Of a stretch of DNA of 41,308 nucleotides, positions 16,739-34,439 are shown in pieces (positions within the stretch are counted from its first letter, which is position 1; each line of letters opens with the position of its first letter). The translations under genes were made by a program, and so were the position numbers. Origin of the DNA: Pelagicoccus sp. SDUM812003 (GTDB lineage: Bacteria > Verrucomicrobiota > Verrucomicrobiia > Opitutales > Opitutaceae); assembly GCF_031127815.1 (NCBI RefSeq), contig NZ_JARXHY010000023.1, forward strand, positions 1-41,308, read 5' to 3'. The notes beneath the pieces are model-generated. The model saw only the letters and a program-made list of their open reading frames with translations, had not been told where the DNA came from and did no database searches.

Positions 16739-17932
16739 TCAGCAGTGCTCCGCCAGCGCCTGGGGATCGGTTTCCTTCGCCCGGGCCGACGCCAGCCGCT
16801 CGCGAGCGCTCTCCTTTCCGACCAATCGGTACACCGCCCACACCGCATGGGCCCGCACGAGCGCCTCGGCATCGTCGGCAGCCAGTCCCTCCAAAGTTTC
16901 GAGCACCTGCTCGAGAAAAACCTCACGCCCCACGCCCTCCGGCCACCAATCCTCGCACACCAGCAGGTTTCCAGCAGCGACGCAGGCGTTTCGCTTCAGT
17001 CCTCGCAGCTTGGTCCGCTTCATAGGCATCTTGCGGAATGTTTCGCGAAAGGTTTCGACATCCATCCGCAGCAAATCGAGAAGACCGATATTCGCGATTT
17101 CGTAGCGCGTCTCCAAAAGCTGGGCACGCCCCGCTTTGGCGAAACGGTTCCAAGGGCAGACATCCAGGCAAATGTCGCAGCCAAACACCCGACCGCCCAT
17201 GCGTTCGCGAATCTCGTGTGGGATGAAACCTCGATTCTCGATGGTCTGGTACGAGATGCAGCGTCGCGAGTCCACCACGCCTGGCTCCACAATCGCATCC
17301 GTCGGGCATGCATCCAAACATCGGGTACACTTTCCGCAGAGGATCCCGACATCCGGCTTCTCGATCCGTTCGCCGTCCGACTTGGAACGCAGCGGGGGAT
17401 CCGGCTCGAATTCCAAACGGCAGTAGATCGCGCTGAGAAACAGCCAGTTGCCGTGCGTCTTAGAGATCAGCATGCCGTTCTTGCCTTGCCAGCCCAATCC
17501 CGAGCTCGCCGCCCATCCACGCTCCACCACCGGTCCGGTATCCACATAGTAACGGTAGTCGCGCGGCCCCAAAGCGAACCGCTGCTGCAGCAGCTCGCCC
17601 ACTTTCTTCAAGCCAACCAGCAATGTGTCGTGATAATCTCGATACAGCGAATACTTCGCGAATCCCGTCTGGGAGCGGGCCTCCGTTTCCTCCCTGGGCA
17701 GGTAGTTCGCGCCCAGCAGAATCGCGGACTTCGCTCCCTCCAGCACCAAGTCCGGATTCTTCCGCTTTTCCAAAGACCGGGCATACCAGTCCATGTCGGC
17801 ATGGTAGCCTTTCTCCACCCAAGCCCGCAACGCCGCATCGTCTACCTGCCCCAGACGGGCGAAGCGCGCCTCGTCAAAACCGATTTCCCGAATCGAGGCC
17901 CGTAGCTCCTCCTTCTGGCGCGAACCGATCAT
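16739..17932 (-). CDS. queG: Epoxyqueuosine reductase QueG
   Basis: This 397-residue cytosolic iron-sulfur and cobalamin enzyme reduces epoxyqueuosine to queuosine at tRNA wobble position 34, the last step of queuosine synthesis. Two [4Fe-4S] motifs are present: CGKCTRCLDACPTD (about 195-208) and CDICLDVCPWN (about 252-262). Upstream is the conserved YVDTGPVVERGWAASSGLGW segment (about 138-157) and GMLISKTHG. The C-terminal 100 residues are helical HEAT-like repeats, as in characterised QueG. The start overlaps the end of aroK by four bases (ATGA), so translation is probably coupled. Confidence 0.95.
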   Translation of the reverse strand: MIGSRQKEELRASIREIGFDEARFARLGQVDDAALRAWVEKGYHADMDWYARSLEKRKNPDLVLEGAKSAILLGANYLPREETEARSQTGFAKYSLYRDYHDTLLVGLKKVGELLQQRFALGPRDYRYYVDTGPVVERGWAASSGLGWQGKNGMLISKTHGNWLFLSAIYCRLEFEPDPPLRSKSDGERIEKPDVGILCGKCTRCLDACPTDAIVEPGVVDSRRCISYQTIENRGFIPHEIRERMGGRVFGCDICLDVCPWNRFAKAGRAQLLETRYEIANIGLLDLLRMDVETFRETFRKMPMKRTKLRGLKRNACVAAGNLLVCEDWWPEGVGREVFLEQVLETLEGLAADDAEALVRAHAVWAVYRLVGKESARERLASARAKETDPQALAEHC

Positions 17933-18468
17933 AGCTTGCGCTGAGCCGCTTCCAGCTTATAGGAGCGACACACGTGGGCCACCACATCGTTGACGTGACG
18001 CCCCTCGGTGAGGATCTGCACGTGGGCCTGCCGATAGATCGGATCGCGGGCCGCCATCAGCTTGGCGATTTGCGCTAGCGGGTCCTCCACCTGCAACAGG
18101 GGGCGGTTCGAATTGTGGCGCGTGCGCTCGAACACCCCTTCGGCCGTGGCGATAAGCGAAAAGACCAAGCCCTTCCCCTTCAAGGTCTCCATCATTCCGG
18201 GCTGGATCACCAAGCCGCCTCCGCAGGCGATCAGGCAGCCTTCGCCAGGGTGGCCGTTTTCCACGAACGCGCGCTCCATTTCGCGAAACGCCGGCTCACC
18301 GTCCTGAGCGAAGATATCGGGAATGCTGCGGCCCTGCTGGGCTTCGATGGCGTGGTCGCTATCCATAAACTCCAGGCCAAGACGCTGCGCGGCCAGGCGG
18401 CCCACAGTGCTTTTGCCAGTTCCCATAAATCCTGCGAGGTAGAGGTTCGGTTTGCGCTTCCGGTTCAT
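17929..18468 (-). CDS. aroK: Shikimate kinase
   Basis: This encodes shikimate kinase (about 179 residues), which makes shikimate 3-phosphate in aromatic amino-acid synthesis. Motifs are Walker A AGFMGTGKSTVG (near residue 12), the shikimate-binding FMDSDHAIEAQQGRSIPDIF (near 35), GEPAFREME, ACGGGLV, the lid Arg in RPLL and RDPIYRQ. The ATG at 18468 gives the usual short lead before the P-loop; an in-frame ATG at 18489 adds seven residues and cannot be excluded. Its stop overlaps the queG start. It is read divergently from the oxidoreductase-methyltransferase fusion, leaving about 57 bases between the two starts. Confidence 0.94.
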   Translation of the reverse strand: MNRKRKPNLYLAGFMGTGKSTVGRLAAQRLGLEFMDSDHAIEAQQGRSIPDIFAQDGEPAFREMERAFVENGHPGEGCLIACGGGLVIQPGMMETLKGKGLVFSLIATAEGVFERTRHNSNRPLLQVEDPLAQIAKLMAARDPIYRQAHVQILTEGRHVNDVVAHVCRSYKLEAAQRKL

Positions 18469-18525
18469 AACGAGCAGTCTTGCACCCATAAAGTCCCGAC
18501 ACCTAGAGTCTACTCTATAATCCGC

Positions 18526-20223
18526 GTGCCGCCCAACCCTTCAAGCCACTCAACCGCCCCCCGCTCCAGCTACGACGCCCTGATCTTCGGCGGCGGACTC
18601 GCCGGCTCGCTTCTGGCGGAGCGCTTTCTAGCAAGCGAAAAACGCGTACTGCTCGTCGACGATCCCAGCAAGTCCAGCTGCTCTCGCGTCGCCGCAGGCC
18701 TGATCAATCCCATCGGAGGCAAGCGATTGAAACGCGTCTGGCGAGCGGAGGACCTTCTCCCCCACGCCCTCGAGGCCTACTGCCAGCTAGAGGCGAAACT
18801 CAAAACCACGATCTTCCACCCCCGGCCCATCGCTCGACTCTTCGCCAACACCCACGAAGCCCAGCTTTGGCAGAAGCGCATCGCAGACCCGGCCTACCTT
18901 CGCCAGACCCGCTCCCTGAGCGCCCTCTCGTTGCCGAAAGCGTTTTCTAGCGATTCCGGATTCGCAGTGATGGAGTCTGGCTACCTCGACACCAGCTCCC
19001 TGATCGAGCGCTTGCGCGACGCCTTCCGGTCGCGAAGCGCTCTGCTCGAGCAAAGCTTTCGCTACGAGGACATCGAGATCGGGCCAGACAGCATTCGCTA
19101 TCAGGAACACAGGGCTCCCATCGCCGTCTTCGCCGAGGGACACCTCGCCACCCGCAACCCCTGGTTCTCCTTCGCCCCCTACAAGCCAGCCAAAGGTCTG
19201 ATCGCCACCGTGCGCCTATCGCCTGAGCACGCACGAGACTTCTGCACCAACTCGCCGATCGTAATCAAATCCAAGTTCATCGTGCCGCGCCACGACGGCC
19301 GACTGATCGTCGGAGCCACCTATCGATGGGACGACGCGACGGATTCTCCCGATCCAGAGGGCGAAGCGGAACTGGCGGACTTTCTCGATGATCACTTCGG
19401 TAGCGGAAACTGGTCTTTCGAATCCGTGCAGGCTGGCGTTCGCCCCGCCACCGCGGGGGCCTATCCGATCGTCGGCCCGCACCCCACGCTTCCGCAACTC
19501 CTATCCTTCAACGGATTTGGCAGCAAAGGCTCCCTGCAGATCCCCTTCTTCGCCGACGCATTGCTGGAGCGGATTTATGAAAACAAGGACCTTCCGCCCG
19601 AAGTCCTGCCCAAGCGCTTCATAAAAGCTCCAGCTCTCAAACCAAGGCGTTGGATCGCCACCGAGGTGGTTCGTGAGGTGATAAGCCATCACGTGAATCC
19701 CGGAGAAACCGCCATCGACGCCACTGCAGGCAACGGGCACGACACGGTGTGGCTGTGCGAAAGCGTCGGAGCCAGCGGTCATGTATTCGCATTCGACCTA
19801 CAAGCGCCGGCCCTCGAAATAACGAGGGGACGCCTTCGCAAAAGCAGCCTCGCCAAGCGAGCGACCTTGATGCAGCGCGGCCACGAAACCATGCTGGATT
19901 CCATCCCCCCCGAACACCGCGGCGGGATTTCAGCGATCGTCTTCAATCTCGGCTTTCTGCCCGGTGGCGATCTACAGGTCGTCACCCAGCCCAAAACCAC
20001 GCTGCAAGCCCTGGATGCGTCGATGGTTCTGCTGAAGCCGGGAGGAATGCTCAGCATCACGCTCTATCCCAGCCATCCGGGTGGCCAGGAGGAAGTGGAT
20101 GAAGTCCTAATCTGGATACAAAGGCTCGCCTCAGATCAAGCCGAGGTTTGCTTCGAGCGGCACCCCACCGGCAACCGCAACTCCCCCTATCCCGTTTTCA
20201 TCAAGAAACGCTCGCTCGCGTAA
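18526..20223 (+). CDS. FAD-dependent oxidoreductase (MnmC(o)/DAO-like) fused to MnmM/YtqB-type tRNA methyltransferase
   Basis: This is a 565-residue two-domain protein. Residues about 16-355 are a D-amino-acid-oxidase-fold flavoprotein: dinucleotide motif FGGGLAGS (21-28), VLLVDDP, AAGLINPIGGKR (57-67) and the C-terminal GVRPATAGAYPIVGP (304-318) and FNGFGSKG. After a linker (about 356-378) comes a class I SAM methyltransferase (about 379-562) of the MnmM/YtqB family: AIDATAGNGHDTVWL (396-410), AFDLQ (422-426), FNLGFLPGGD (473-482) and LYPSHPGGQEE (513-523). In E. coli, MnmC carries an oxidoreductase (cmnm5U34 to nm5U34) and a methyltransferase (to mnm5U34) on tRNA; MnmM makes the second step in Gram-positive bacteria. 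The start is inferred as GTG 18526, because no ATG lies before the FAD motif and further extension would run into aroK. The function as a whole is inference. Confidence 0.85.
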   Translation: MPPNPSSHSTAPRSSYDALIFGGGLAGSLLAERFLASEKRVLLVDDPSKSSCSRVAAGLINPIGGKRLKRVWRAEDLLPHALEAYCQLEAKLKTTIFHPRPIARLFANTHEAQLWQKRIADPAYLRQTRSLSALSLPKAFSSDSGFAVMESGYLDTSSLIERLRDAFRSRSALLEQSFRYEDIEIGPDSIRYQEHRAPIAVFAEGHLATRNPWFSFAPYKPAKGLIATVRLSPEHARDFCTNSPIVIKSKFIVPRHDGRLIVGATYRWDDATDSPDPEGEAELADFLDDHFGSGNWSFESVQAGVRPATAGAYPIVGPHPTLPQLLSFNGFGSKGSLQIPFFADALLERIYENKDLPPEVLPKRFIKAPALKPRRWIATEVVREVISHHVNPGETAIDATAGNGHDTVWLCESVGASGHVFAFDLQAPALEITRGRLRKSSLAKRATLMQRGHETMLDSIPPEHRGGISAIVFNLGFLPGGDLQVVTQPKTTLQALDASMVLLKPGGMLSITLYPSHPGGQEEVDEVLIWIQRLASDQAEVCFERHPTGNRNSPYPVFIKKRSLA

Positions 20224-25988: not shown

Positions 25989-28181
25989 CTAAAACAGCTC
26001 TCCTTGACTTAGGTCGCTTTTCATCTCGGGGCAGAATGGCAGGTATCGCTTTCGCCAGTCGTCGAGCTTCTTCAGGTAGTAGCTGGGATCGTATGGCATG
26101 GTCTCTGGATCGTACTGATCTATCGGATACGCTCGCTGCCAGTCGGAGGTTTGCCCGCGTTCCTTCGGTCTAATAAAATAGCTCACGCGATCTCCCATGC
26201 TCAAAGAGCCATCCATTTTCAGAGCGACTTCGAGCGACGCCCGCCTTGGCTTTCCTCCCGCGTCCATCTTCTTCTGGTAGGATTCAGGATTCTGGCTCAG
26301 CACTTCCGACTTGGCGATCTTCGACACCGGAAGTCGCTGCTGGGAAATCAGTTTTTCAACCTTCATCGCCTCTACCGCCGGATCAGCCCCCGTCGCCCCT
26401 AGCAACGAGTGGATCAAGGTCACCGTCAGGTCCTTCAAAAACGGCTCGATGCCGCGCGAGCGCAAGGCGGAGCCGCGAATCGTCACCTTCGCCCCATCGT
26501 AGAGGGCATAGTTCTTCGCCTTGTAGCAGAACATCGACTGGTACCTGCCATCGTACTCCAGCTCGATCCCCTCTGGCAGAATCGCTTGAGCCTTCTTCAG
26601 CAAGGCATCCGCCTCGTCGAAAAACCTTCCAGCGCAGACATAGATCCCATCGGTATCCGCCTCCAGCGGGGGGCAACCGGCTTCTTTGAAGAAGGCGATC
26701 AGCGACTGCAGTATCTCGCGTCCTTTCGCGGTAACCTCGGATGCTAGCTGGGCGTCTCCGAATCGAGCGCCCGAAAAGCCCAAATAGCCGTAGAACGAGT
26801 TGATAAGAATCTTGAAGCTGCTTTGACGGGCGTTGTATTCGCCAGCCAATGACGGATCTTCGGTCTCACGCGCTAGGCGCTTGTATTTCAGCCGGTATTC
26901 CCGCAAGCGCTTGAGCATGGGAATGAATACGCCGAGAGAGTCGCGCTTGGGATTGCGTCCGATCATCAGAAGCAGGCTCGGGTAGAGAGAGGCGACGTCG
27001 AAATGTAAAACTTTCTCGAATATACCTTCTTCGAAACTCGCGGTGTAGCCGCCTTCGAAAGCAGTCGTATCGCCTGGCGCCGGACAGGCCGCGCGAGCAT
27101 GAAAATACTCCTCCTGGAAAACGAGGTCGACCTTGCCCGCGGAACCGCGCAGACAGGCTTCCTGCAAGGTGGTGGGAAACGCCTTCGCTTGCTCGAAGTA
27201 GGTCGGCAGCAGTTGATCCGCCACCCCGAGCGTCTCACGCAAATCGTCTTTCAGATATTCGAGAAAGGTTTCACGATCATCGTCGAACATGCGCTGGATC
27301 TGGTCCCCAGCGATGTAGGTTCGCTCATCTCCCTCTTCCGAGGTAACTCCGAGGTAGCGAGCCACATCCTTAAGCCCATACGACATGAGCTCCCGGGTGG
27401 ATATGTCGTAGATCTGTATCAGCAGATACGTATCCACGACCGCGCGCCCCGGGATGTCGCAGCGCGGGTAGTCGATCCAGCGCTCCGCAACTCTAAGTCG
27501 CGTATTTCGAAAGCTCGCTTCCTGCCCGAAGCGTCCCCAGAGCGGAGCGAGCCTAAAGCGCTTGCAACGGCGGCGAAGATAATCGAGGTCGAACTTGAAT
27601 ATGTTGTGCCCTTCGATTACGTCTGGATCCAGTTCCTGGATACGCCGCCCCAGTCGCTTCAGCAGCTCGCGCTCCGCGGCGTCCGTTCGTTCCTCAAGAA
27701 CCAACGTTTCGATCTGGTCGCCGCAGCGAAGGCCGATCGCCAGCACGCGATCCCCCTTTCGAGTCGGACTGCTAAAACCGCCTTCCACTTCGCATGCGGT
27801 TTCGATGTCGAGTTGCAGTCGACGCAGGTCGCTGTAGCGCATGCCGTCGAACAATCGTAAACGCTCGCTGAGCAGAAACTGGCTTTCCAACAGGCGTATC
27901 AGGTCGATAGATCCCGTTCGGCCATGTTCCTTCACCAGCTCGGCATAGGCCTCCAGCGATTCGAAGCGCAGCAGCTGATTGTATTCGCCATCTCCTGACA
28001 GCGACTCCGCGACGACGCCCGGAGCGGACCCCAGCCTCGCGTACTTTCGCGCCCAGACAAACGCGGAAAAGGGACGCGTCTCCTCGCGTCGTTGTCCGTT
28101 CTCGTCGCCCAAGCAGAGATGGGCGAGGCCATCGGGATCGATCCAGACGCCGCAAAGCGATTCCTTGGTAGAGTCAGCCAT
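25989..28181 (-). CDS. Family B DNA polymerase (Pol II-like) with 3'-5' exonuclease
   Basis: This 730-residue DNA-directed DNA polymerase has all family B motifs. Exonuclease: Exo I LQLDIET (Asp125, Glu127), Exo II GHNIFKFDLDYL (Asp198) and an Exo III-like EYLKDDLRE near 325. Polymerase: motif A FDVASLYPSLLL, motif B RQSSFKILINSFYGYLG and motif C EADTDGIY with the catalytic ADTDG. The chain ends in QGELF, which resembles the QLGLF clamp-binding tail of E. coli Pol II, so it probably works with the beta clamp, in repair or translesion synthesis. It is shorter than E. coli Pol II (783). A terminator hairpin ends only eight bases before its ATG, so how it is transcribed is unclear. Confidence 0.94.
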   Translation of the reverse strand: MADSTKESLCGVWIDPDGLAHLCLGDENGQRREETRPFSAFVWARKYARLGSAPGVVAESLSGDGEYNQLLRFESLEAYAELVKEHGRTGSIDLIRLLESQFLLSERLRLFDGMRYSDLRRLQLDIETACEVEGGFSSPTRKGDRVLAIGLRCGDQIETLVLEERTDAAERELLKRLGRRIQELDPDVIEGHNIFKFDLDYLRRRCKRFRLAPLWGRFGQEASFRNTRLRVAERWIDYPRCDIPGRAVVDTYLLIQIYDISTRELMSYGLKDVARYLGVTSEEGDERTYIAGDQIQRMFDDDRETFLEYLKDDLRETLGVADQLLPTYFEQAKAFPTTLQEACLRGSAGKVDLVFQEEYFHARAACPAPGDTTAFEGGYTASFEEGIFEKVLHFDVASLYPSLLLMIGRNPKRDSLGVFIPMLKRLREYRLKYKRLARETEDPSLAGEYNARQSSFKILINSFYGYLGFSGARFGDAQLASEVTAKGREILQSLIAFFKEAGCPPLEADTDGIYVCAGRFFDEADALLKKAQAILPEGIELEYDGRYQSMFCYKAKNYALYDGAKVTIRGSALRSRGIEPFLKDLTVTLIHSLLGATGADPAVEAMKVEKLISQQRLPVSKIAKSEVLSQNPESYQKKMDAGGKPRRASLEVALKMDGSLSMGDRVSYFIRPKERGQTSDWQRAYPIDQYDPETMPYDPSYYLKKLDDWRKRYLPFCPEMKSDLSQGELF

Positions 28182-33122: not shown

Positions 33123-34439
33123 ATGGACGCTAGCGAACCGCAACAGACCATCAAGCCCGCCGACTTGCGCGGCATCCTGAACTACGTACCCAGATTCCTG
33201 GGACAAACGTTCGTCGTGGCTCTCGACGGCGCTATCATCGAGCACGAGAATCTGCCCAACGTGCTGCTGGACATCGCCGTCCTGCGTAGCCTGCAAATCA
33301 ACGTGGTCATCGTGCACGGCATCGGCAAGCAGCTGCGCGACCTCAGCTCCCAGCGCAACATCGAAGCCACCGATTTCACGGGCAGCGGCCCTACGGACAT
33401 CAAGACGCTCGACCTCGCCATCCGGGCCTCGTCCCGCGTTTCGCATCAAATCCTCGAAGCCCTCACCAAAGCCGGCCTCAAGTGCGCCATCACCAATTCC
33501 GTCAAAGCCAAACCGGCCGGAGTGCTCAAAGGGGTCGATCACCTGTACACCGGCAAAGCCGACCAGATCGACGCGGATTTCCTCAACCACCTGATATCCA
33601 AAAACATCATACCGATCATCCAGCCGATCGGGTTCGATCGAAACGGCCATACCCTGCGCGTCGACAGCGACGCCCTGGCGGTGGACACGGCCATCGCCCT
33701 AAGCGCCACCAAGCTCCTGTATCTCACCGAGCAAAACGGATTCACCCAGGACGGACAACTCACGCAGCAGATCCCGGTAGCCGAACTCGAACGCATGCTG
33801 AGTTCCGAAGCGTTTCAAACCAACCACGCTCCGCTGCTGAGCAAATCGCGCAACGCCCTGCGCGGCGTGAAAGCGAATATCTCGCGTATCCACATCCTGG
33901 ATGGACGCATCCACGACGGTCTGATTCGCGAAGTGTTTTCGAACGAAGGCGTGGGCACCTTGATCTACGGAAACGAATACCAGCAGATTCGAAAGGCCAC
34001 CCGCGACGAAACCGCCCTGCTCTACCACCTGACCCGAAGCGGCGTGGCCAAGGACGAGCTGATTTTCCGATCGATGCAAACCATCGAGACCAAGATCGAC
34101 AATTTCTACGTCTACGAGGTCGATGGAAACATCATGGCTTGCGTGCTCCTGGATACCATGGAGGGCGATCCCACGATGCGCGAAATCAGCTCGCTCTTCG
34201 TTCACCCGCTCTACCAGCGCCGCGGCATCGGCCACAAGCTGGTGCGCTTCGCCTGCCATCGGGCGGAAGAGGAGGGAGCGAAGCGCGTCATCGCCTTTTC
34301 CACGCAGAGCCACGCCTTCTTCAAGGGCGTGTCCGGCTTCGAGGAAACGACTCCCGACGTTCTCCCGCCTGCTCGCCGAGCCGCCTACGAAGCGAACCAG
34401 CGCAAGTCGAAGATCCTGCTCAAGCAGGTCGGGGCTTGA
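33123..34439 (+). CDS. argA: Amino-acid N-acetyltransferase (N-acetylglutamate synthase)
   Basis: This 438-residue enzyme makes N-acetylglutamate, the first step of arginine synthesis. Residues about 10-285 are an amino-acid-kinase (ArgB-like) domain, with VVIVHGIGKQL near 61 and a TDFTGSGPTD segment; in ArgA this domain holds the arginine feedback site. Residues about 295-430 are a GNAT domain: EISSLFVHPLYQRRGIGHKL (near 355-374, the acetyl-CoA loop RRGIGH) and AFFKGVSGFEE. Size and order match classical ArgA. No other arg genes are adjacent. The start MDASEPQQ has no Shine-Dalgarno site, like most genes here. Confidence 0.95.
   Translation: MDASEPQQTIKPADLRGILNYVPRFLGQTFVVALDGAIIEHENLPNVLLDIAVLRSLQINVVIVHGIGKQLRDLSSQRNIEATDFTGSGPTDIKTLDLAIRASSRVSHQILEALTKAGLKCAITNSVKAKPAGVLKGVDHLYTGKADQIDADFLNHLISKNIIPIIQPIGFDRNGHTLRVDSDALAVDTAIALSATKLLYLTEQNGFTQDGQLTQQIPVAELERMLSSEAFQTNHAPLLSKSRNALRGVKANISRIHILDGRIHDGLIREVFSNEGVGTLIYGNEYQQIRKATRDETALLYHLTRSGVAKDELIFRSMQTIETKIDNFYVYEVDGNIMACVLLDTMEGDPTMREISSLFVHPLYQRRGIGHKLVRFACHRAEEEGAKRVIAFSTQSHAFFKGVSGFEETTPDVLPPARRAAYEANQRKSKILLKQVGA

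Follow-up and report, generated by a model that had tools for sequence, protein, structure and literature searches.

The closest described system is MnmC of E. coli, a single chain in which a SAM-dependent methylase of the PF05430 family, MnmC(m), precedes an FAD-dependent oxidase of the DAO fold, MnmC(o), and which is found in a genome with MnmE–MnmG. In Gram-positive bacteria the partner of the methylase MnmM (YtqB) is MnmL (YtqA), a radical-SAM protein and no DAO protein. The table of a 2025 review gives MnmC/MnmL for nm5s2U and MnmC/MnmM for mnm5s2U, so that MnmL stands beside MnmC as a maker of nm5s2U (PMC12548931). Cho et al. 2023 describe the MnmC(o)-like enzyme of organisms with MnmM as unknown, regard such an enzyme as probable also in organisms whose mnmC(m) gene is an orphan, and state that their screen did not find the fused gene or operon that they expected (PMC9976899). 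Here we analyse a gene of Pelagicoccus in which a DAO-family oxidoreductase and an MnmM methyltransferase are joined in one chain.

An oxidase–MnmM fusion in Pelagicoccus

The fused gene lies in a 41,308-nt stretch of Pelagicoccus DNA (hereafter the window), in a forward-strand reading frame that is open from 18115 to 20223. Counted from an assumed GTG start at 18526 the gene spans 18526..20223 (+) and encodes 565 aa; no clear Shine-Dalgarno sequence was seen upstream of this GTG, and the start codon is uncertain. Residues 17–348 match the Pfam DAO family (PF01266, E 4.6e-24) and residues 420–559 match Pfam PF06962 (E 3.1e-36), while residues 379–562 score 182 bits, against a cut-off of 135, with NF053511 (tRNA_U34_MnmM), the NCBIfam equivalog model for tRNA 5-(aminomethyl)-2-thiouridylate-methyltransferase (MnmM). 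At the DNA level, the MnmC(o)-like DAO oxidoreductase domain occupies 18550..19632 (+; profile A2, 424.9 bits, and Pfam DAO) and the MnmM domain 19660..20211 (+; NF053511, 185.5 bits in the genome search), with a short linker at 19633..19659 (+) in the gap between the two profile matches.

Like E. coli MnmC, the protein is thus a single chain of a DAO-fold FAD oxidase and a SAM methylase in a genome with MnmE–MnmG; unlike MnmC, it has the two domains in reverse order, and its methylase belongs to MnmM (PF06962) instead of PF05430. Compared with a canonical MnmC, it has no PF05430/MnmC2 domain, scores below TIGR03197 and does not carry its methylase first. An initial annotation, made from the sequence of the window, had read the frame as a DAO-fold FAD oxidoreductase followed by an MnmM-type methyltransferase, in the order opposite to MnmC and with a methylase from another family, and the Pfam and NF053511 matches agree with each of these points. 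It had also expected a genome with mnmE and mnmG and no mnmC, which is what we observe: mnmE and mnmG are adjacent on contig C10 of the host genome, both over cut-off, and a profile search of this 97.54% complete genome gives no match to the MnmC-type methylase PF05430. Across 16 genomes tested, mnmG is over cut-off in all 16 and mnmE in 15. The genome without an mnmE over cut-off, G113 (genus g29, family f7), does have mnmG over cut-off, and its best TIGR00450 match covers part of the model at 112 bits, in a frame of 489 aa that also has two GTPase matches.

Two further genes of the window were recorded as separate observations. A family B DNA polymerase (PF00136, PF03104) is encoded on this bacterial contig at 25989–28181 (−), and a frame at 33123–34439 (+) joins an amino-acid kinase domain and a GNAT acetyltransferase domain in one chain.

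The methylase half retains most of the MnmM catalytic residues

In the PDB, the C-terminal half is closest to putative RNA methylases (4pon, E 7e-36), among which is YtqB, now named MnmM (8h0s, E 2.4e-35). The three motifs named in the initial annotation, DATAGNGHDT, NLGFLPGG and SHPGG, are all present in the translation. DATAGNGHDT (19717..19746, +), which we take to be the SAM site of the MnmM domain, contains D406, equivalent to D34 of B. subtilis MnmM; NLGFLPGG (19945..19968, +) contains N474 and F477, aligned with N101 and Y104; and YPSHPGG (20065..20085, +) contains Y514 and H517, aligned with Y141 and H144. The B. subtilis numbering is secure in this alignment, in which all ten cited residues carry the expected letter. 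D406, N474, Y514 and H517 are identical to their B. subtilis counterparts, and the same residues occur in 11 of 11 fused genes. Thus the whole methylase domain scores above the MnmM cut-off and keeps the catalytic D, N, Y and H, and it differs from B. subtilis MnmM in standing C-terminal to an oxidase, whereas the PDB chains of MnmM are about 200 residues long.

Other positions differ. According to the mutant data given by Cho et al., the activity of B. subtilis MnmM is removed by K11E, D34A, N101A/D, Y104A, K110E, Y141F and H144A, with very low residual activity for K11E and K110E and about a third for Y104F (PMC9976899). In the window protein both lysines are replaced: the K11 position is R383 (R in 7 of the 11 fused genes, the window counted) and the K110 position is L483 (K in 6 of the 11). 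The Y104 position is F477, with F in 4 of the 11. Because K110E leaves very low activity and Y104F about a third, the change from K110 to L483 is the main residue-level point against the proposed function; the oxidase half may or may not take over the K110 contact.

The oxidase half is related to MnmC(o)

The DAO half falls below the cut-offs of the ThiO and MnmC1 models. Its best-scoring NCBIfam DAO model is that of the glycine oxidase ThiO (TIGR02352), at 85.2 bits against a cut-off of 250.8, and the MnmC1 model TIGR03197 gives 61.8 bits against a cut-off of 174.2; among the best PDB matches of the DAO-family profile, glycine oxidases rank above MnmC. Pfam and NCBIfam models detect no radical-SAM domain in the fused protein. 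The initial annotation had supposed that a DAO/YurR protein partners MnmM in Gram-positive bacteria under the name MnmL. This does not hold, because TIGR01212 (NCBIfam) names MnmL as the radical-SAM protein YtqA; Gram-positives are therefore not the source of the DAO partner, and DAO with MnmM is a different combination.

A careful tree of 56 rows recovers the window's DAO family as one clade (100/99, UFBoot/SH-aLRT), a second Bacteroidota DAO group as another (97/95) and canonical MnmC(o) as a third (100/99). These three group together against ThiO, DadA, SolA and related rows with 94/88, which is not starred; the outgroup rows include a ThiO above its cut-off (L220). The tree gives no firm order among the three, with p-AU values of 0.213 and 0.473 for two alternatives. 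The second Bacteroidota branch comprises 18 rows and takes in most of those lower-scoring DAO matches of the Bacteroidota-centred genome set (see below) that were fetched and placed in a tree, and its one member scanned in detail (L192) is nearer MnmC1 by profile, at 139 bits against the cut-off of 174.2.

The family motif AAGLINPIGGKR (residues 56–67; 18691..18726, +) precedes Arg306 (19441..19443, +), whose counterpart in glycine oxidase is the Arg of AG(L)RP, and GSKG (residues 332–335; 19519..19530, +), a G(S/A)(K/R)G-type motif common to the DAO family, the second Bacteroidota group and MnmC(o). Arg occupies position 306 in all 130 family rows (127 of them distinct), all 18 rows of the second Bacteroidota group, all 5 MnmC(o) rows and 7 of the 8 outgroup rows. 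At position 334, K or R is found in every one of the 130 family rows, in 17 of the 18 rows of the second group and in all 5 MnmC(o) rows, and in 0 of 8 outgroup rows, five of which have H. The matching Arg of ThiO binds the substrate carboxylate, and by analogy such a role for Arg306 would suit the glycine moiety of cmnm5U. ThiO and the DAO half share the DAO fold and the AG(L)RP Arg, whereas the DAO half falls below the ThiO cut-off and in another clade, and has NGxGSKG where ThiO has GHxRNG.

Judged from its sequence, the DAO half is a distant relative of MnmC(o). Like the oxidase of E. coli MnmC it carries the G(S/A)(K/R)G motif and the Arg and falls on that side of the tree, but in a separate clade and with a low MnmC1 score. 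The initial annotation had described the protein as convergent evolution of MnmC; this description stands for the fusion and the methylase, which alone are independent of MnmC, and fails for the DAO half, which the tree places on the side of MnmC(o). The grouping with amino-acid oxidases that would have spoken against the annotation was not found, and the broad DAO family with an AAGxxNPxxG motif that it had foreseen does exist and tracks U34 methylases, as described below.

The fusion is conserved and has a paired counterpart

The same single-frame fusion occurs in G223, a genome of the same family as the window, with 46% identity. When GTDB genomes were scanned with a DAO-half profile, at least 526 relatives were obtained, ranked by likeness to the window, and among the best 80 named loci nine carry the fusion (L049–L056 and L061). 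Their titles are Pelagicoccus (three), Verrucomicrobiae bacterium DG1235, Puniceicoccaceae K14 and Opitutales/Opitutaceae MAGs (four). Because G223 and nine of the 80 named loci share it, the fusion is neither an assembly artefact nor a chance event. The nine loci, the window and G223 form one clade of 11 rows in a quick tree (SH-aLRT 97, or 100 without L061), and one fusion event is therefore enough. The union of an MnmC(o)-like oxidase with MnmM is thus conserved and apparently of single origin. A further candidate, the apparent 662-aa frame of G066, was rejected as a third fused genome: its DNA holds two neighbouring genes with a stop between them. A plasmid search gave no match.

The flank is conserved as well. 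The divergent neighbour of the fused gene is aroK (shikimate kinase; 17929..18489, −), which adjoins queG (epoxyqueuosine reductase; 16739..17932, −). Of the 10 fused relatives examined, nine retain both genes, and the tenth, L061, is a short contig. The queG–aroK block lies divergently upstream of the fused gene at 16739–18489 in the window and in the flanks of L003 and L049–L056. QueG also acts on tRNA position 34.

Among the same best 80 named loci, 48 have mnmM beside a non-fused DAO gene, always on the same strand (48 of 48). The MnmM motif lies 53–142 nt past the DAO stop in 41 of these pairs. In the others the motif pattern was not found and the frames overlap or abut (L065, L067, L100, L109), mnmM lies about 0.8 kb further on (L093, L118), or mnmM comes first (L069). 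In the remaining 23 of the 80 loci mnmM was not found in the available stretch, which in 5 of them runs for less than 230 nt past the DAO stop. Hosts of the pairs include Methylococcales, Nitrosomonas, Mariprofundaceae, Omnitrophota, Opitutales and one planctomycete. The fusion is thus the merged version of two genes that non-fused relatives keep close together on one strand. Genome surveys show the same arrangement: mnmM follows DAO directly and in the same direction in 14 of the 46 MnmM genomes sampled from the window's phylum (2 fused, including the window's own, and 12 neighbours) and in 9 of the 32 MnmM genomes of a Bacteroidota-centred set. In all 23 adjacent cases the DAO gene or domain is first; in the other MnmM genomes the two lie at a greater distance or on different contigs. 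In one Bacteroidota MAG (L159), an orphan PF05430 gene is directly before the DAO gene on the same strand (438–1496 and 1492–2163, −).

The DAO family tracks U34 methylases

We surveyed 288 genomes of the window's phylum with a search that scored part of the candidates in each genome. The DAO family is present in 62 of the 288 and MnmM is over cut-off in 46; 46 genomes have DAO and MnmM, 16 DAO only, none MnmM only and 226 neither, in a sample whose genomes share ancestry. The score gap that delimits the DAO family was chosen after the scores were seen, the lowest accepted genome having 127.4 bits (G178, in two pieces) and the next 73.6, and the DAO counts leave out three of 65 genomes, at 42–74 bits (G046, G047, G074). 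Likewise, six of 85 PF05430 genomes with weak partial matches of 20–24 bits are left out of the PF05430 counts (G158, G161, G213, G229, G234, G277), of which G158, G234 and G277 have MnmM.

Several of the DAO genomes without MnmM have a PF05430 match. Six genomes of family f22 have an orphan PF05430 gene in frames of 255–326 aa, and four of family f1 have a PF05430 match (G085, G088, G160, G260), that of G088 being part of a Tgt fusion. Neither MnmM nor PF05430 was found in six DAO genomes of the set (G091, G146, G169, G181, G193, G271), of which G091 and G271 are one contig each. The DAO genes L214, L216, L217 and L218 come from four of these genomes that belong to the window's own family (G091, G169, G181 and G271) and give no MnmM over cut-off and no PF05430 match. 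There nm5U is perhaps the end product, or a further methylase perhaps exists; inspection by eye gave no clear partner gene beside the partnerless DAO genes of the window's family.

A second set of 218 genomes, without completeness figures, centres on Bacteroidota, the phylum of the Aureispira genome G303 that was reached through its DAO locus. Here PF05430 is found in 84 genomes and MnmM in 32, never together. Before the MnmM search we fixed the prediction that 21 genomes with a strong DAO match and no PF05430 should have MnmM; 16 of the 21 do, compared with 16 of the other 197. MnmM was not found in the five remaining predicted genomes (G370, G378, G446, G452, G463). Every one of the 32 MnmM genomes has a DAO match, 17 of them at 220 bits or more, 12 at 110–220 and three lower. 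At a threshold of at least 110 bits, which takes in the second, more distant DAO branch, 103 genomes have DAO and a U34 methylase, 7 DAO only, 13 a methylase only and 95 neither (n=218); the same four classes hold 58, 5, 58 and 97 genomes at 220 bits and 110, 14, 6 and 88 at 40 bits. Besides the five genomes named above, a methylase was not found in the lower-scoring DAO genomes G354 and G472. Bits of split matches were summed for G481 (pieces on two contigs), G350, G371, G422, G456, G468, G472 and G512. Fisher values for co-occurrence are not probabilities, because genomes share ancestry.

We also checked 50 of the 80 named-locus genomes for PF05430 and MnmM, comprising the 9 fused, the 23 without mnmM and 18 of the 48 pairs. 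MnmM is over cut-off in 34 of the 50 and reaches 133 bits in G304. Eight genomes without MnmM have an orphan PF05430, in frames of 224–252 aa in seven of them and as a fragment at a contig end in the eighth; their loci are titled Bacteroidetes, Saprospiraceae, Aureispira, Chitinophagales and Bacteroidia. Neither methylase was found in seven of the 50 (G297, G298, G300, G302, G307, G308, G311). Weak partial PF05430 matches occur over cut-off in G308 and G324 and below it in G321, G324 and G321 also having MnmM, and the nine fused genomes contain no PF05430. For the orphan-PF05430 pairing G305 and G318 are weak evidence, because the tree places their DAO genes (L084 and L121, titled uncultured Bacteroidia) among those of Methylococcales, a placement that may reflect transfer or binning contamination.

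A proposed route from cmnm5U to mnm5U

Taken together, the domain content, gene pairing and phyletic distribution make it very likely that the fused protein acts on the tRNA wobble uridine with two activities and takes the place of MnmC, using a methylase from another family. In the route that we infer, which extends to what the DAO half acts on and how, to the sequence of the steps and to any channelling between the domains, MnmE–MnmG, both encoded in the genome, would put cmnm5 on U34; the FAD domain would oxidise the glycine part of cmnm5(s2)U, which would leave as glyoxylate to give nm5(s2)U; and the MnmM domain would methylate the amine of nm5(s2)U with SAM to give mnm5(s2)U.

The partners of the DAO family differ by host, with MnmM neighbours in several phyla, MnmM in one chain in the Pelagicoccus/Opitutales clade and an orphan PF05430 in many Bacteroidota and in family f22. 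Co-occurrence, gene neighbourhood and the tree mark the family as a candidate cmnm5U oxidase for Verrucomicrobiota, several Proteobacteria and Bacteroidota. The family is probably a third kind of cmnm5U34 oxidase beside MnmC(o) and the radical-SAM MnmL, which would work with either MnmM or an orphan MnmC-type methylase and so account for the MnmC(o)-like enzyme that is missing in those bacteria. Both the fusion and the paired genes are of the kind that Cho et al. say they expected, found in other bacteria, and they name a testable candidate (PMC9976899).

A different reading would leave the MnmM half active and make the DAO half an ordinary amino-acid or glycine oxidase of the ThiO type, fused by accident or for regulation and with no tRNA substrate. 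The model and structure rankings lean this way, ThiO being the best NCBIfam DAO model at 85.2 bits and glycine oxidases standing above MnmC among the PDB matches; we nevertheless consider it quite unlikely, as the score is far below the ThiO cut-off of 250.8, the tree sets the family with MnmC(o) and apart from ThiO (L220), DadA and SolA, and both gene pairing and co-occurrence follow U34 methylases. The DAO half might instead remove a group other than the carboxymethyl of cmnm, for example as an eraser that demethylates mnm5U, or act on another U34 side chain. Some DAO-family enzymes, such as sarcosine oxidase, oxidise N-methyl groups, and some genomes with the DAO gene are without a known methylase. 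Against this, the invariant Arg, with the carboxylate role that its ThiO counterpart has, is in keeping with the glycine part of cmnm5U but not with mnm5U, and co-occurrence with two unrelated nm5U methylases suits a maker of nm5U, which renders an eraser or other side-chain activity highly improbable.

It is also conceivable that only the methylase step is needed, with nm5U made directly by MnmE–MnmG with ammonium, or made by MnmL, and the DAO protein redundant or conditional. Cho et al. do describe MnmEG as able to use ammonium (PMC9976899), and MnmL does occur in the phylum, as a fusion with PF05430 (L036, L040). That all 46 MnmM genomes in the phylum sample retain the oxidase, and that it adjoins mnmM at so many loci, is hard to reconcile with redundancy, and we give this account very little probability. 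The two-step route through the DAO and MnmM domains is the reading we prefer.

Further mixed fusions

No description of a DAO–MnmM fusion was found in the literature searched. A 2024 study by Jaroch and colleagues in J Bacteriol reportedly named YtqA as MnmL, in an operon with mnmM, and its abstract is said to mention fusion proteins and alternate arrangements; part of the present findings may therefore already be in print. The finishing of wobble uridine appears to be modular, three oxidase types and two methylase types being put together in varying pairs, and at least two mixed fusions were seen here, DAO–MnmM in the window and MnmL–PF05430 in L036 and L040.

The second of these came from PF05430 proteins of about 600–700 aa in the phylum, considered as canonical MnmC and rejected as such in four of the five scanned, which proved to be other fusions, of MnmL or Tgt with PF05430; the fifth (L032) has both MnmC domains over their cut-offs. 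In L036:73-1977 (+) and L040:1315-3069 (−), MnmL/YtqA (TIGR01212, 234.7 and 269.1 bits, cut-off 180) is N-terminal to PF05430, and the MnmC2 model NF033855 gives 122.9 and 120.8 bits on the methylase domains against a cut-off of 136. From its domain content, the MnmL–PF05430 fusion in the window's phylum is another putative mixed MnmC equivalent.

Fusions of Tgt (tRNA-guanine transglycosylase) with PF05430, the latter at 44–55 bits, link queuosine and U34 enzymes. They are encoded at L223:1816-3930 (−) in G088, of the window's family, and at L224:134-2200 (+) in G102, of the window's order, which is the only genome of the phylum set with both MnmM and PF05430, the dropped weak matches aside. 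L226 (G274) looks alike by eye.
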